Position numbers and translations under genes: made by a program. Below, one piece after another: positions 1-13,429 of a stretch of 64,000 nt of DNA. The notes beneath the pieces were generated by a model. The model was not told where the DNA came from. It did not search any database and saw only the letters and a program-made list of their open reading frames with translations. Every line of letters starts with the position of its first letter. Positions within the stretch are counted from its first letter, which is position 1. The stretch covers positions 1 through 64,000 of the forward strand of contig JAABTL010000007.1 of assembly GCA_011389865.1 (NCBI GenBank), written 5' to 3'. Source of the stretch: Trueperaceae bacterium (GTDB lineage Bacteria; Deinococcota; Deinococci; Deinococcales; Trueperaceae).

Positions 1-1820
1 AACAGCGCGCCCTGCTCACCCGTGCGCTCGGCCGCGACTACCGCCACCTCTCGCCGCAGCGGGCCAGGGAGGCCGCCCCCGTCTTCGACGAGGTCCTCGG
101 CGACGCGCCGGCCAAGGAGGCGCTGCTCGACCTGCTCACGCGCATGGAGCCACGCCACGCCCGTCATCTCGCGCCCCACAGTGGCGGGGTCGTCCTCGCA
201 CGCGACCCTCTCACGCACTACAGCCCCCTGCAACGCTCGAGCGGCGGGATCAAGCTGCTGCAACTCGACAAGGACGACGCCGAAGCCCTCGGCCTCATCA
301 AGCTCGATCTCCTCGGGCTGCGGATGCTCGCGGCCCTAGAGCGTGCCCGCGAGGAGGTCCTGCGCACGCAGGGCACATGGCTCGACCTCGATCGCCTTCC
401 CGACGATCCGCGCGTCTGGGACGTCATCGCCGCGGGCGCCACCATGGGCCTCTTCCAGATCGAGAGCCCCAGCCAGGTCAACACCGCCCGCGTCATGCGC
501 TCGCGCACCCTCAAGGACCTCGCCCACCAGATCGCCCTCATCCGGCCCGGCCCGATCCAGTCCGGCACCGTGCACCCGTACCTGCGCCGCCGCCAAGGCC
601 TCGAGCCGCTCAGCTACTGGCACCCCAGCCTCGAGCCCATCCTGGCCAAGTCCTACGGCGTCCTCCTCTTCCAGGAGGACGTCCTGCGCATCGCCGTGCA
701 CTTCGCCGGCATGAGCTGGATCGAGGCCGACCGCTTCCGCAAGCGGGTCTCCGGCTTCCGCGATCTCGCCGACATCGAACCCGATCGCCAGCACTTCGTG
801 GCGGGCGCGCAACGCACCCAGGGCGCCTCCGAGGCCGAGGCGAACACCGTGTTCGACGCCATCAAGGCCTACCAGGGCTACGGCTTCGCCGAATCGCACG
901 CCTGGGCGTTCGCCCTCCACGCCTACGCCTCGGCCTGGCTGCGCGTCCACCACCCCGCCGCCTACCTCGCGGCGATCCTCACGGAGGAACCGGGCATGTG
1001 GTCACCGTCGACCAAGCGACAGGAGGCGCGCGCGTGGGGCGTGCCCTTCCTGCCGATCGACCTCGACCGCTCGGGCGTCCACTACCGCGTCGAGCGCGCG
1101 GCCGACGGGCGTTGGGCGATCCGCCCGCCCCTCACCGCCGTCAAGCAGGTCTCGCTCGACCTGGCGCGAGCGGTCATGTGCGATCGCCTGGAGAACGGTC
1201 CCTACGCAAGCGCCCAGCAGGCGATGCGTCGCGTCGCGGCCCCCGTCGACACCTGGGAGGCGCTCGCCCGCGCGGGGGCCTTCGACGCCACCACCCCGCG
1301 ACGCGACGCGCTGTACCTGGCGCGTGCCGCCGCCGGGCCCCCCGCGCCGGCGGGTCAGGAGGGGCTCTTCGAACCGCCCGCCGACGTCCCCGCGTTCGAG
1401 CCGCTGACCGAGGGCGAGCGCTACGTCTGGGACCACGCGGTCGCGCGCTTCTCCAGCCTGGAGCTCCACGCGCTCGACCTCGTGCGGGATCAGCTGCACG
1501 AGCTGGGTGCCATAACGTTATGGCAGCTGCGCCGAGCCTCCCGCAAGAGCCGCCACCGCACCGCCGGCCTGGTCGTCGGCCGCCAACGGCCGGGCACGGC
1601 CAAGGGCTTCGCGTTCTTCGTCCTGGAGGACGGGCCCACCCGGGGGCAGCTGATCATCTCGCCGGACCTGTGGGAGCGCCACCGCATCATCCTGCGCGAC
1701 GCGTCGATCCTGATCGCCGACGTGGTGGTGGAGGACACCGGCTACCAGCTGTCGCTGCGGGCCGAGCGACTGTTCGCCCTGCCGGCGCCCGTCAACGTGC
1801 GGGGCTACCACTACGCGTGA
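1..1820 (+). CDS. dnaE2: Error-prone DNA polymerase III alpha subunit, DnaE2/ImuC type (5' truncated)
   Basis: Translesion C-family polymerase, normally working with ImuA/ImuB in damage-induced mutagenesis. The frame is open from base 3 to the TGA at 1818-1820, so about 605 C-terminal residues are visible and the PHP and catalytic palm parts are outside the window. Seen: GLFQIESPSQ, the RPGPIQSGTVHPY segment, GVLLFQEDVLR, a helix-hairpin-helix region around GYGFAESHAWAFALHAYASAWLR, and a C-terminal OB-fold segment (GFAFFVLEDGPTRGQLIISP). The short C-terminus without a tau-binding tail points to DnaE2 rather than replicative DnaE1. A perfect 18-bp palindrome (parS candidate) lies inside the coding region at 1508-1525 and imposes ATA and TTA codons (A-I-T-L-W), very rare in this GC-rich gene. 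No imuB is visible. Confidence 0.88.
   Translation, partial: QRALLTRALGRDYRHLSPQRAREAAPVFDEVLGDAPAKEALLDLLTRMEPRHARHLAPHSGGVVLARDPLTHYSPLQRSSGGIKLLQLDKDDAEALGLIKLDLLGLRMLAALERAREEVLRTQGTWLDLDRLPDDPRVWDVIAAGATMGLFQIESPSQVNTARVMRSRTLKDLAHQIALIRPGPIQSGTVHPYLRRRQGLEPLSYWHPSLEPILAKSYGVLLFQEDVLRIAVHFAGMSWIEADRFRKRVSGFRDLADIEPDRQHFVAGAQRTQGASEAEANTVFDAIKAYQGYGFAESHAWAFALHAYASAWLRVHHPAAYLAAILTEEPGMWSPSTKRQEARAWGVPFLPIDLDRSGVHYRVERAADGRWAIRPPLTAVKQVSLDLARAVMCDRLENGPYASAQQAMRRVAAPVDTWEALARAGAFDATTPRRDALYLARAAAGPPAPAGQEGLFEPPADVPAFEPLTEGERYVWDHAVARFSSLELHALDLVRDQLHELGAITLWQLRRASRKSRHRTAGLVVGRQRPGTAKGFAFFVLEDGPTRGQLIISPDLWERHRIILRDASILIADVVVEDTGYQLSLRAERLFALPAPVNVRGYHYA
1508..1525. other. Candidate parS site 1 (inside dnaE2)
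   Basis: Perfect palindrome TGCCATAACGTTATGGCA. The 16-bp core GCCATAACGTTATGGC recurs exactly at 2095-2110 and 7645-7660. ParB proteins bind such palindromes near their own operon; here the site is within an open reading frame. Assignment to ParB is inference from the repetition and the proximity to parAB. Confidence 0.7.
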
Positions 1821-2193: not shown

Positions 2194-2661
2194 TTAAGCC
2201 TGCAGTTCCGCCAGGGCCGCCGCGACCTCCTCGGGGTGCTCCTCCGGCTTGACCTTCGGCCACGCCCTCGCCACCTTGCCGTCGGGATCGATCAGGTAGG
2301 TGATCCGCTGCACCCCCATGTAGCGCTTGCCGTACATGCTCTTCTCGACCCAGGCGCCGTAGGCCTCCAGCATCGCCTTGTCCGAATCGACGAGCAGCGG
2401 GAAGTTGAGGTCGAACTTCTCGGCGAACTTGCGATGCGCCTTCTCGTCGTCCGCCGACACGCCCCAGACGACCGCGTTGAGGCCCTCGAAGCGGGGGAGA
2501 CCGTCGCGGAAGGCACAGGCCTCCTTGGTGCACCCCGGCGTGTCGTCCTTCGGGTAGAAGTACACGACCAACCAGCGACCGCGCGCATCCGCCAACGAGC
2601 GAATCTGGCCGTCCTGGTCGTGCAAGCTGAAGTCCGGTGCGTTCTGACCCACCTCGAGCAT
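2194..2661 (-). CDS. bcp: Thiol peroxidase, Bcp/PrxQ-type peroxiredoxin
   Basis: Thioredoxin-dependent reduction of H2O2 and organic hydroperoxides in the cytosol. The 155-aa product has the full-length single peroxiredoxin fold: N-terminal APDFSL, then [16 protein letters not shown] with peroxidatic Cys44 and a second Cys49 five residues later, the PrxQ arrangement, and [14 protein letters not shown] near the C-terminus. The start is fixed by GGAGGTG about 7 nt upstream of the ATG at 2661. A TAACCT hexamer at 2681-2686 (minus strand) is a likely -10 box. It converges on dnaE2 and is followed by a hairpin. It appears to be transcribed alone. Confidence 0.93.
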
Positions 2662-5725: not shown

Positions 5726-6679
5726 TCAGGCCTCTTCGAGCAGCTCGAGGAGCTCGTCCAGCAGCGACCCGACCCGCCTCAACCGCTCCTCGGGAAGCCG
5801 TACCAGCGAGCGCCGCTGCAGCAGCCGCCGGGCCGCGTGCAGGCGATCGAGCACCTCGTCGTCGAGGCGGCGGTCGACCTTGCGGTCCGCACGCGCCTCG
5901 GTGATGCGGCGCCGGATCTGGCTGAGGCTGAGGCGCTCGCGGGCCGCCTCCTCGAGGAGGCGGCGTCGGTCGACGGGGTCGTCGACCCGGGCCAGGGCCT
6001 GGGCCTTGGTGAAGTCGAGCCGGCCCTGGCGCACGGCCTCGAGCAGCTCGTCGGGGAAGCCGAGGATGGGGACGCGGTTGGCCAGGAACGACGCCGGCGT
6101 GAAGCGGCCGAGGCGTTCGAAGAGGCCCATCGCGACCCCCTTCTGGTCGGCCGAGAAGCGGGTCTGCGGCGCCCGCCCACGGCCCTCCTGCACGCACTCG
6201 TTGAGCAGCGCGAGCGCGCCCCCACGGTCGAGCTCGAGGCTCAACTCGAGCAGCTGCAGGACGGCCTCGGTCTCCTCGACGGCGTTGAGATCCTCGCGCT
6301 GGAGGTTCTCCATGATGGAGATCTCCAAGGCCTCGCGATCGTCGAGCTCGAGGACGATCGCCGGAACGTGGCTGAGGCCGGCCTCGCGGGCGGCGCGGGC
6401 GCGCCGCTCGCCGGCGATCAACTCGTAACCGGCGTCCACGCGGCGAACCAGGACGGGCTCCAGCACCCCGTGCTCGCGGACCGAGGCGGTCAGCGCTGCC
6501 AGCGCCACCGGGTCCATGAACTGGCGCGGCTGCCGCTCGGGGAAGACGATGTCGTCGAGCCGGATGCCGCCCTCGCCGGTTCCGGCCTGCGCCTCGGGCG
6601 CCGCCTGGCCCAGGTCGCCGAGGATCGCCTCGAACACCGCGGCCCGGTCGAGGTCGCCACGCCGCTTGCGGGCGCTCAT
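5726..6679 (-). CDS. parB: ParB-family centromere-binding partition protein
   Basis: 317-aa CTPase/DNA-binding protein that loads at parS and spreads along DNA to engage ParA. N-terminal ParB/Srx domain with RQPRQF, GERRARAAREAGL and ENLQREDLNAVEE (the three diagnostic boxes), followed by a helix-turn-helix domain (FLANRVPILGFPDELLEAVRQGRLDFTKAQALARV) and a charged Leu/Arg-rich C-terminal helix that probably dimerises. It is encoded downstream of parA with ATGA overlap (6676-6679). Its best binding-site candidates are the three GCCATAACGTTATGGC palindromes nearby. Confidence 0.93.
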   Translation of the reverse strand: MSARKRRGDLDRAAVFEAILGDLGQAAPEAQAGTGEGGIRLDDIVFPERQPRQFMDPVALAALTASVREHGVLEPVLVRRVDAGYELIAGERRARAAREAGLSHVPAIVLELDDREALEISIMENLQREDLNAVEETEAVLQLLELSLELDRGGALALLNECVQEGRGRAPQTRFSADQKGVAMGLFERLGRFTPASFLANRVPILGFPDELLEAVRQGRLDFTKAQALARVDDPVDRRRLLEEAARERLSLSQIRRRITEARADRKVDRRLDDEVLDRLHAARRLLQRRSLVRLPEERLRRVGSLLDELLELLEEA

Positions 6680-7485
6680 GCGTCCATCCCCAGCGCCGCG
6701 AGGAGCTCCTGCGTCACCTTGCGCACCTCACGGTCCGCCTCGCTCCCCGGGGCGTACAGCGGGATCGGGAGACCCTCCACCTGCGCGTCGCTGTAGATCG
6801 CGGGGCGGCTGGCCAGTGGCGAGGAGATCGGCGCCACGGCCGGCAGCTGGGCGGCGATGATCTCGTGGCTCTCCCGGTCGTGTCGCGTCCGGCGGTCGTG
6901 CTGCGTCAACACGAAGAGCGCGATGTCGAGGTCGCGGGCCGCCTTCTTGTACTCGCGGACCATCTTGACGACGGTCGGGATCCCGTCGAGGCCCTTGCGG
7001 TTGGTGGGCAGCGGGACGACCACGCGGTCCGAGGCGACGACCGCGAGCGCCGACAGCTGGCCGAGGCTGGGCGGCGGGTCGATCAGCACGAAGTCATAAC
7101 CGTGCAGCCGGCGGACGGCGTCGCGGAGCCGCAGCACGCCGAGGAAGACGGTGAGGATCTCGCGCTCGATGATCGCGATGTTGAGGTGCGCAGGGATGAG
7201 GTCCATCCCGTGGACCTGCAGCGGTGAGGGCAGGCGGAGGTCGGGCTCGTCGCCGTTGGCGACCTCGGCCGTACCGTCCCCGGGCTCGCCGAGGATCGCG
7301 GGGTAGACGGTCCGGTCCAGGTCGACGTCCTCGTCGACGCCGAGCCACTTGGTCAGGTTCGCCTGGGGGTCCATGTCGATCAGCAGCACGCGGCGGCCGC
7401 CCTCGGCCAACACGTAACCCACGTCGCGCACCGTGCTCGTCTTGGCGACGCCGCCGGCGTGGTTGAAGAAGGTGAGCACCATCAT
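6676..7485 (-). CDS. parA: ParA-family partition ATPase with divergent Walker A
   Basis: 269-aa ATPase that binds nucleoid DNA and moves ParB-parS complexes. The P-loop region reads NHAGGVAKTS (residues 8-17) where the canonical deviant Walker A is KGGVGKT; the signature lysine before GG is Ala10 and a glycine is Ala14, while the catalytic-loop Lys15 is kept. VLLIDMDPQANLTKWLG and FVLIDPPPSLGQLSALAV are normal Walker A'/B segments. There is no N-terminal DNA-binding extension, so autoregulation would depend on ParB. Start chosen at ATG 7485 (MMVLTF); GTG 7509 is an alternative. A TATGAT -10 lies at 7539-7544. Confidence 0.9.
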   Translation of the reverse strand: MMVLTFFNHAGGVAKTSTVRDVGYVLAEGGRRVLLIDMDPQANLTKWLGVDEDVDLDRTVYPAILGEPGDGTAEVANGDEPDLRLPSPLQVHGMDLIPAHLNIAIIEREILTVFLGVLRLRDAVRRLHGYDFVLIDPPPSLGQLSALAVVASDRVVVPLPTNRKGLDGIPTVVKMVREYKKAARDLDIALFVLTQHDRRTRHDRESHEIIAAQLPAVAPISSPLASRPAIYSDAQVEGLPIPLYAPGSEADREVRKVTQELLAALGMDA

Positions 7486-7538
7486 GGATCCGACCCCCGC
7501 GTGGCGCACCCGAACGACCCGGCCTCCACGGTGCGCGC

Positions 7539-7641: not shown

Positions 7642-7663
7642 GGCGCCATAACGTTATGGCGCC
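7642..7663. other. Candidate parS site 3 (origin)
   Basis: Third copy of GCCATAACGTTATGGC (7645-7660), here extended by GGC/GCC flanks to a perfect 22-bp palindrome. It sits between parA and rep, the usual place for a plasmid centromere. Confidence 0.78.
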
Positions 7664-7943
7664 CGTCGCCCCCATCGACGGGGCCCGGTTCCTCGATTGT
7701 CCCACTTCGCGGCGCCGAGGCCTCCTCGCCGGCGCCCCGAGTCCCTCGTCTGTCCCACTTCGGATCGTCGCGCGTCCGCAACCAGGTCCCCCCGGCAAGG
7801 GCCGTGCTGCACGCGCATCTCGCGCGCATCCGCAGCCCACGCGCTGGCGCCGACGGGCCGCCGCCGTCCACGCCGGCGGTCGCGACCGGGGCCGAGCCGG
7901 GCGTGCGCCCCCCGGGATCGCATCGGCGCGCACGCAGCGAAGC

Positions 7944-8470: not shown

Positions 8471-8517
8471 GCAGGGTGCGTCGATGCCGAGCAGGACGGC
8501 ACCCGGGCGTTCGTGGT

Positions 8518-8647
8518 GGGGAGCCCGCGGGACCGCCGCGGGAGGCGAGCGGGACCGTCGGGGGACGCGCGGGGGACCCCGGTGGGGAACCTCGGGGACC
8601 ATGTGGGGAAGGCGGGGGACGGAAACGGGGAAAATGGGGGACCCCAG
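8518..8647 (+). repeat. Tandem iteron array (six 21-23 bp units)
   Basis: Units at 8518-8539, 8540-8560, 8561-8583, 8584-8604, 8605-8626 and 8627-8647. Each holds two half-sites, GGG(G)A[A/G/C] then GGG(G)AC, about 11 bp apart. The A following each G-tract falls at 8522, 8532, 8543, 8554, 8565, 8576, 8588, 8598, 8609, 8619, 8631 and 8641, a mean spacing of 10.8 bp, so all face one side of the helix. Unit length matches iterons of Rep_3 plasmids, and the adjacent gene encodes such an initiator. Confidence 0.8.
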
Positions 8648-8677
8648 TTCCCCGCATCGCGTGCCATGTGGTGAACA

Positions 8678-8707
8678 TTGACACACCGTTCCCCACACGC
8701 GTATGGT
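8678..8707 (+). promoter_or_regulatory. Promoter of rep
   Basis: TTGACA (8678-8683), 18-bp spacer, TATGGT (8702-8707). An inverted iteron half-site (GTTCCCC, 8688-8694) lies between the boxes and another (AGTTCCCC, 8646-8653) just upstream, which suggests autorepression by Rep. Confidence 0.72.
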
Positions 8708-8731
8708 TCCATGATCGCCGTGAGGGGGACG

Positions 8732-10303
8732 ATGGAACGCGAACCGGTGCATGCAGACGGGGCCTCGCCGCCCGCCTCGGGAGCCGACCCGGCCGTCGAC
8801 CCGGGCGACGTCCGCCCGCCAGCAGTCGGCGGCGGCGGTACCGGTGGTCGCGCGCGCCCGGGGCACTCGAAGACGGGCCGTTCCGGACCGAAGTCCGCGG
8901 CGAAGGCGGCGGCACGCCGCGGCATCGAGCGCCGCACGGGTGGCCGCGTCGCCGTCACCCAGGCCAACCCGCTCGCGCTGTCGCGCCAGGAGATGGGACT
9001 CCTGACCAAGCGCCTGCTGGTGCTGGCGCTCTCCGACATCACCCGCGACGACCACGACCTCGAACCGATCCGCATCACCGCCTGGGAGTACGCCCAGATC
9101 TTCAACATCCGCGGCAAGAGCATCTACAACCGCATCGAGGATTCGGCTCGCGAGCTCCTCGAGCAGACCGTCCAGGTCAAGGAGCCCAACGGCGACTGGA
9201 TCATGTTCCAGTGGGTCAGTGAGGCCCGCTACGACAGCGGGCGCGACAGCAAGGACAAGCTGGCCTGCATCGAGCTCAGGATCCACGACAAGCTCCGGCC
9301 GTACCTGCTGCAGCTGCGGCGCGACTTCAGCATCATCCCGACCGACCAGCTGCTCAGCTTCGAGTCGTTCAACAGCATGCGGCTCTTCGAGGTGCTCTAC
9401 ACCGCGAGCTACGGCGGCGAGAAGCACCACCTCGAGTTCGACGTCGACGACCTCAAGCTCCGCCTCGGCCTCGACGGGAAGTACGAGCGCTTCAAGGACT
9501 TCACCTACGTCCTCGACCGGGCCCGCGACGAGTTCTCGCGCTACACCTCGCTGACGTTCACCTACGAGGGCCGCAAGGTGGGGCGCAAGTACCAGCACGT
9601 CTCGATCCTCATCGAGAAGAACGACGTCTTCCAGCCGCGCGTGCGGCTGCCCGAGAGCATCGCGCGGCGGGTGAAGCGCGAGGGCGACGGCGAGGCGAAG
9701 CTGCGCGCCCTGCAGGCGGCCGACGACCTGCGCGAGATCGGCTGGGCGCTGGACCCCGACGCCAGCGTCAAGCAGTACGGCCCGCAGCGTGTCATCGACG
9801 TCGTGCGCTACGCCCGCACGCTGCAGCGCAAGGCGGAGCAGGCGGGCCGACCGATCGCCAACCTGGCCGGCTTCGTCCACAGCCTGCTGCAGCAGGGCAT
9901 CGAGCCGCCGCGGGGCGAGGCGAACGAGGCCGCCGACGCGCGGCTCACCCGCGAGGCGCTGCGCGGGATCGTCGCGGGGCTGCAGGAGTCGTTCCACCAG
10001 CAGCGCCGCGAGCGCGGGCGGTCCGCGTGGGAGGCGATGAGCGAGGACCAGCGGCAGCTGGTGCACACGCTGATGCAGGCGACGCTGCACAAGTTCACGC
10101 TCGAGCGCATCGAGCGCGATGGCTGGCAGGGGAGCCTCTACGAACTGAGCCGCCTGGACGTGCTCGCCGCCCACGGCTTCGCGAGCCTGCCACCGCAGTT
10201 GCAGGACGTCGTCGCGTTCGTCGACCACGGCGACCTGCTCGCGGAGTACCTGCCCGACGACCGGCGGCGGCTGCTGGACGAGTTGCGCGAGGCGGCCGGC
10301 TGA
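8732..10303 (+). CDS. rep: Replication initiator protein, Rep_3 family
   Basis: Iteron-binding initiator of plasmid-type replication; 523 aa. After a disordered Gly/Pro/Arg-rich tail (1-72) comes the Rep_3 core (about 75-300): VTQANPLALSRQEMGLL, first winged helix with WEYAQIFNI and SIYNRIEDSARELLE, then FNSMRLFEVLYTASY and the second winged helix DVDDLKLRLGLDGKYERFKDF. An extra, mostly helical C-terminal region (300-523) is longer than in small plasmid Reps and may contact other replisome parts. Start chosen at ATG 8732 behind AGGGGG and downstream of the TTGACA/TATGGT promoter; upstream TTG 8678 would place the promoter in the coding region. Divergent from parAB. Confidence 0.88.
   Translation: MEREPVHADGASPPASGADPAVDPGDVRPPAVGGGGTGGRARPGHSKTGRSGPKSAAKAAARRGIERRTGGRVAVTQANPLALSRQEMGLLTKRLLVLALSDITRDDHDLEPIRITAWEYAQIFNIRGKSIYNRIEDSARELLEQTVQVKEPNGDWIMFQWVSEARYDSGRDSKDKLACIELRIHDKLRPYLLQLRRDFSIIPTDQLLSFESFNSMRLFEVLYTASYGGEKHHLEFDVDDLKLRLGLDGKYERFKDFTYVLDRARDEFSRYTSLTFTYEGRKVGRKYQHVSILIEKNDVFQPRVRLPESIARRVKREGDGEAKLRALQAADDLREIGWALDPDASVKQYGPQRVIDVVRYARTLQRKAEQAGRPIANLAGFVHSLLQQGIEPPRGEANEAADARLTREALRGIVAGLQESFHQQRRERGRSAWEAMSEDQRQLVHTLMQATLHKFTLERIERDGWQGSLYELSRLDVLAAHGFASLPPQLQDVVAFVDHGDLLAEYLPDDRRRLLDELREAAG

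Positions 10304-11139: not shown

Positions 11140-13429
<2,290 letters not shown>

Follow-up and report, generated by a model that had tools for sequence, protein, structure and literature searches.

An 18-bp palindrome inside dnaE2 is very probably a parS site of a secondary-replicon ParABS system in a Trueperaceae bacterium

Why should a gene that avoids A and T at third codon positions contain a long palindrome spelled with rare codons ending in A? The question is raised by dnaE2 of a Trueperaceae bacterium (NCBI GenBank assembly GCA_011389865.1), which stands at the beginning of contig JAABTL010000007.1; the window analysed here comprises positions 1 to 64,000 of the forward strand of that contig. 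The initial annotation had described a palindrome at 1508-1525 that is read as A-I-T-L-W by way of ATA and TTA, and both sequence and frame were confirmed: TGCCATAACGTTATGGCA is a perfect 18-bp palindrome and the dnaE2 frame across it is GCC ATA ACG TTA TGG. The codon bias that had been pointed out is also real, as 43 of the 605 dnaE2 codons (7.1%) end in A or T, and the only ATA (n = 1, vs. 21 ATC) and the only TTA of the gene both lie inside the palindrome. The same annotation suggested that the palindrome is a parS site, that selection for it had overridden codon choice, and that ParB spreading from it could affect dnaE2 expression. The features of the locus on which these suggestions bear are as follows.

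3-1820, plus strand: dnaE2, error-prone DNA polymerase alpha subunit; its 5' end is missing at the contig start, and a full-length homologue is present in locus L068.
1508-1525: TGCCATAACGTTATGGCA, predicted parS copy within the coding sequence of dnaE2, toward its 3' end; its codons give AITLW, in the linker that immediately precedes the OB fold.
2095-2110: second predicted parS copy, GCCATAACGTTATGGC, in the gap between the convergent dnaE2 and bcp; its place is kept in relatives.
2194-2661, minus strand: bcp, peroxiredoxin-like (named from its sequence), a conserved neighbour between dnaE2 and parB.
5726-6679, minus strand: parB of the secondary replicon; its product combines ParB_N with HTH_ParB and has both CTPase motifs, GERR at aa 90 and ENLQRE at aa 124.
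6676-7509, minus strand: parA, a ParA-family Walker ATPase, adjoining parB.
7642-7663: GGCGCCATAACGTTATGGCGCC, the third predicted parS copy, in the interval that separates parAB from rep, upstream of parA; its place is kept in relatives.
8505-8675: degenerate direct repeats of GGGGAC type in steps of about 22 bp, iteron-like, upstream of rep.
8678-10303, plus strand: rep, a Rep_3-type replication initiator; start codon uncertain.

The core of the palindrome, CCATAACGTTATGG, occurs three times in the window, at 1510, 2096, and 7646, all within 6.2 kb. None of 100 shuffles of the window reached three copies (mean 0.21, with up to three mismatches). Across the whole 3.05-Mb genome, CCATAACGTTATGG was found at these three places only, with one mismatch or fewer allowed, and its reversed control had no match; at 73.8% G+C, 9e-5 copies of the 16-mer (about 1e-4) would be expected per genome. 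All three copies lie near parA-parB-rep. The classical chromosomal parS consensus, TGTTTCACGTGAAACA / TGTTNCACGTGAAACA, was not found in the window even when three mismatches were allowed, so that the original parS call rested on the palindrome and its neighborhood.

That neighborhood has the make-up of a ParABS locus: a Walker-type parA adjoins a parB with ParB_N and HTH domains, the ParB CTPase motifs GxRR and ENxxR are present as GERR and ENLQRE, and a few palindromic sites are clustered near parAB and the origin, with none elsewhere in the genome. A chromosomal-type ParB is encoded by the same genome on another contig, C15, where the genome's classical-type site, the parS-like CGTTTCACGTGAAACG, lies 1.5 kb away from it. 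Since the chromosomal ParB has a site of its own, the two partition systems are separate and the window holds a secondary ParABS system. The window's contig (C65) may be a separate replicon (plasmid or chromid), or the locus may have been integrated in a chromosome. The genome, which is 97% complete, has a single ligA, for NAD-dependent DNA ligase, at 11189-13429 of the window, 3.5 kb from the parS/rep region, and since ligA is normally essential, the replicon would be chromid-like unless the locus is integrated; a PolX-like polymerase gene comes after ligA. One Thermus genome, G064, carries the homologous locus on the contig of its main chromosome. The missing N-terminus of DnaE2 was absent from the other end of C65, which gave no support for a closed circle.

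The motif follows the window's ParB well beyond this genome. Among 111 genomes of the order, exact CATAACGTTATG was found in 69 copies, of which 57 lie ≤5 kb from a homologue of the window's ParB, 20 of them inside that gene, and ParB homologues were the only common partner seen. Several copies beyond 5 kb are on broken contigs that hold dnaE2-side copies (G079:C394, G087:C277), and a small number of exact matches, from genomes that are large or lower in G+C, are not close to any ParB. In Thermaceae, the same core stands inside parB and is read HNVM, in a different frame from ITLW. The unrelated peptides in dnaE2 and parB, together with the copies outside genes, are strong evidence for a protein-DNA site.

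The named relatives of the window's ParB come from Trueperaceae metagenome genomes, in which a recurring gene order is seen: dnaE2 convergent with bcp, then parB, parA, the site, and rep. The site upstream of parA is present in every site-bearing Trueperaceae locus that reaches parA. In dnaE2 the site occurs in seven genomes of two Trueperaceae genera: the window's genome, G085, G087, and G088 (genus g1) and G075, G079, and G081 (genus g4). It is absent from dnaE2 genes beside parAB in G089, G090, G091, G093, G094, and G098, and from those of G077, G078, and G080 of g4, in which dnaE2 is on another contig; DnaE2 genes away from parAB never have it. The dnaE2 copy is dispensable, for in the sister lineages g8 and g11 dnaE2 adjoins parAB but lacks the site. 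In the ParB tree, g1 and g4 are sisters (100/99) with G098 outside (99/95), a topology consistent with a single gain before the genera split, and the dnaE2 site may thus have arisen in one event. Two genomes show other states of the locus. G089, whose ParB is 58% identical to the window's, has only two-mismatch versions, GCCATACCGTTATTGC and GCAATATCGTTATGGC (L077:7226 and L077:10772), one in the dnaE2/bcp gap and one on the upstream side of parA. In G086, of the same genus and 80% complete, the secondary ParB, DnaE2, and the motif are all absent, as if the whole locus were missing.

The palindrome is thus very probably one of three parS (centromere) sites of a secondary-replicon ParABS system in this bacterium. 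By analogy with other ParB proteins, in which spreading requires CTP (PMC7053999), we infer binding, clamp loading, and segregation at these sites. The local ParB (5726-6679) would recognize GCCATAACGTTATGGC, binding each palindrome as a dimer, would close as a CTP-dependent clamp, and would slide onto the flanking DNA, after which ParA would carry the origin region into the daughter cells. With three sites in 6 kb, more ParB would be loaded. That one copy stands toward the 3' end of dnaE2 would be due to the constant position of this gene beside the partition locus, and the sequence of the site would dictate five dnaE2 codons, including those for Ile, Thr, and Trp and the rare ATA and TTA.

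A further reading is that the dnaE2 copy also regulates its host gene: ParB that has been loaded at this site would spread and either lower the expression of the polymerase or set its timing. The ParB of the locus does have the CTPase motifs needed for spreading, and repression of parS-adjacent promoters by ParB has a precedent in Pseudomonas aeruginosa, in which extra ParB is reported to potentiate repression of promoters adjoining parS3 and parS4 (PMC5521831). However, about 300 bp of dnaE2 follow the site, whereas the expected promoter is >3 kb upstream, ahead of lexA-imuB-dnaE2; two more parS sites are nearby, so spreading would reach dnaE2 without the dnaE2 copy, and lineages without that copy have the same gene order. 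A regulatory role is therefore improbable, and control of dnaE2 by ParB spreading is a speculation that our results do not support.

Less probable still is that the palindrome is no centromere at all and instead serves as the operator of another regulator, e.g., an SOS repressor (LexA or a different one) acting on the lexA-imuB-dnaE2 cassette, or as an autoregulatory operator of ParB or Rep. LexA-like and ImuB-like genes do precede dnaE2 in L068, and autoregulation is plausible for the copy upstream of parA. The other copies, however, occupy non-promoter places, at the 3' end of dnaE2 and in the convergent gap; the site is inside parB in Thermaceae; and the motif tracks ParB homologues rather than DnaE2 genes away from parAB. 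A LexA operator was rejected on the position and distribution of the site, while the parA-proximal copy could still double as an operator.

A transcription terminator, or another hairpin common to several genes, is a very unlikely explanation. What speaks for it comes from genus g4, where the dnaE2/bcp copy is the center of a 28-44-bp perfect palindrome between the convergent genes (L068:7923-7966, L075:8753-8796, L069:4697-4732, and L073:4984-5011), which in L068 overlaps the dnaE2 stop; these extended palindromes possibly double as two-way terminators. Yet the 16-bp core is invariant in its letters, for which a hairpin has no need, no arm changes that keep pairing but alter the core were seen in Trueperaceae, copies within dnaE2 and parB would terminate inside genes, and the window's own gap copy is palindromic over just 16 bp.

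The parS reading leaves the question of what is being conserved in dnaE2, the DNA or the peptide. We compared 30 alignable DnaE2 proteins, seven with the site and 23 without. All 15 bases of GCC ATA ACG TTA TGG are identical in 7/7 site-bearing genes, and no longer stretch of invariant codons exists among the 416 that were aligned. The ATA and TTA of the site are also the only columns with an A/T-ending codon in all seven, and codon identity at shared residues elsewhere in the gene is 0.59-0.81 (reference, the window's gene). The initial annotation had proposed asking whether AITLW is conserved in DnaE2 of species that lack the motif; it is found in 0/23 of them, which read CVPLA, AISLA, ALPLA, AVSLG, and similar at this linker, which is weakly conserved and directly precedes the OB fold (as bounded by Pfam in the full-length L068 protein), with A, L, V, G, Q, or I in the W column. 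That DnaE2 needs AITLW, with the palindrome as a by-product of its codons, is hardly credible and is ruled out by the alignment, for although the peptide is present in all seven site-bearing proteins and the L column is kept in 21/23 of the others, the columns of I, T, and W are either free to vary or hold P/S and A, the synonymous positions are frozen on rare codons, and the same DNA stands outside genes and, in another frame, in parB. Identical codons and a non-conserved peptide indicate that DNA is what is kept, and selection has overridden not only codon choice, as originally claimed, but even amino-acid choice, Ile, Thr, and Trp not being otherwise preferred by DnaE2. DNA-level selection is well supported by this comparison, in which the seven genomes represent two sister genera and about four independent lineages.

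We located the longest palindrome within the gene for 72 ParB homologues, 18 from Trueperaceae and 54 from elsewhere. In 43 of these 54 (including L004 and L005, for which the assignment was manual), the longest palindrome is 18-28 bp and falls at one spot, a linker about 50 codons after ENLxR. The center is usually AACGTT and the arms vary, always symmetrically, as in the following examples.

Nostoc parB: linker palindrome TTGAATCAGAACGTTCTGATTCAA.
Laspinema parB: linker palindrome CTGGCGGACAGCGCTGTCCGCCAG.
Meiothermus luteus parB: linker palindrome GGCTACCCAAAACGTTTTGGGTAGCC.
Thermus sp. 2.9 parB: linker palindrome GGCTACCCATAACGTTATGGGTAGCC.

The last two belong to ParBs that are near neighbors on the tree, yet their arms differ. 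Codon shuffles of the same parB genes matched the observed palindrome length in 0-4 of 100 cases, and the fixed position is a stronger argument for linker sites than length. Most cyanobacterial plasmid-type parB genes examined (L093-L116) have a perfect palindrome of 20-28 bp in the position seen in Thermus, about 50 codons after ENLxR, and its arms differ from lineage to lineage. Thermus brockianus has two parB-like reading frames, separated by 1.4 kb, whose palindromes, CCCCCAACGTTGGGGG and CCCATAACGTTATGGG (L112:6378-6403 and 7735-7760), differ in the inner arms only, which suggests that site specificity diverged after duplication. Two Deinococcus plasmids have GCTCTTAACGTTAAGAGC at or near the parB stop, and Deinococcus deserti has GTCTTCACGTGAAGAC twice upstream of parA. 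None of the 18 Trueperaceae parB genes has such a palindrome at the linker spot; their sites stand outside parB. A 22-bp perfect palindrome in the window's parB, GCCGCCTCCTCGAGGAGGCGGC (5943-5964, RRLLEEAA), was rejected as a site, being at a non-homologous place and missing in G087, whose ParB gene is 96% identical; it is probably a chance product of repeated codons.

Several known systems resemble the window's locus in part. Intragenic parS sites have already been reported in Thermus thermophilus, where parSc is in gidB and the published parSm in parBm, and the pTT27-type ParABm was found by experiment to be replicon-specific (PMC4409726). The parABSm of the HB27 megaplasmid (PMC4409726, PMC10085754) shares with the window a secondary-replicon rep-parA-parB, a homologous ParB (about 41% identical, HB8 copy), and a palindromic parS within coding sequence; T. 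thermophilus pTT27 and one Deinococcus plasmid have this gene order in their annotation as well. Unlike the three copies of GCCATAACGTTATGGC in the window, which are outside parB with one in dnaE2, parSm (AAGGACGCGTCCTT) is a single copy at parBm codon 220 and is not AACGTT-centered. In the HB8 pTT27 parB (L086:2947-3834), this published site is a 14-bp palindrome, a length matched by 18/100 codon shuffles, and the homologous linker place holds TAGGGACAACGTTGTTCCTA, nearly palindromic with an AACGTT center. Specific binding to the codon-220 site was demonstrated by EMSA (PMC4409726). The main parSm of T. thermophilus may, from its sequence, be the linker TAGGGACAACGTTGTTCCTA rather than AAGGACGCGTCCTT, and both could be bound. 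Chromosomal parS (TGTTNCACGTGAAACA, Spo0J/ParB) is likewise a palindrome of about 16 bp, present in several copies near the origin and at times intragenic, but it differs in sequence and is read by a different ParB, for which this genome has the separate site on C15. The cisII/cisMP sites of Deinococcus radiodurans (PMC7671480) are secondary-replicon partition sites beside parAB in the same phylum, but are arrays of 14-18-bp direct repeats doubling as an origin, in contrast to isolated palindromes; other Deinococcus plasmids have AACGTT palindromes beside parB. No relevant description of the motif strings ATAACGTTAT (with parS) and CATAACGTTATG was found in the papers searched, and while intragenic parS is a known kind, the present placement and the motif family appear undescribed in those papers.

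On balance, we favor the broader view that a widespread plasmid-type ParB family (Thermaceae, other Deinococci, and cyanobacteria) habitually writes its centromere into coding DNA, most commonly at the fixed parB linker (18-28 bp, usually AACGTT-centered, with arms changing symmetrically between close relatives) and, in Trueperaceae, outside parB, including dnaE2. The arms would set replicon identity (incompatibility) and evolve with the DNA-reading helix of ParB; if this is true, the centromere and its reader are on the same stretch of DNA. Searching the parB linker for a long palindrome is a simple rule by which the centromeres of many plasmids of Thermus, Meiothermus, and cyanobacteria can be predicted, and it makes it testable whether the experimentally named T. 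thermophilus parSm is the main centromere. For the secondary replicons of uncultured Trueperaceae, the locus provides a concrete, predicted parS sequence, and dnaE2 would be a clear example from nature of codon and amino-acid choice in an unrelated gene giving way to a DNA-binding site, for which relatives that have and lack the site serve as controls.
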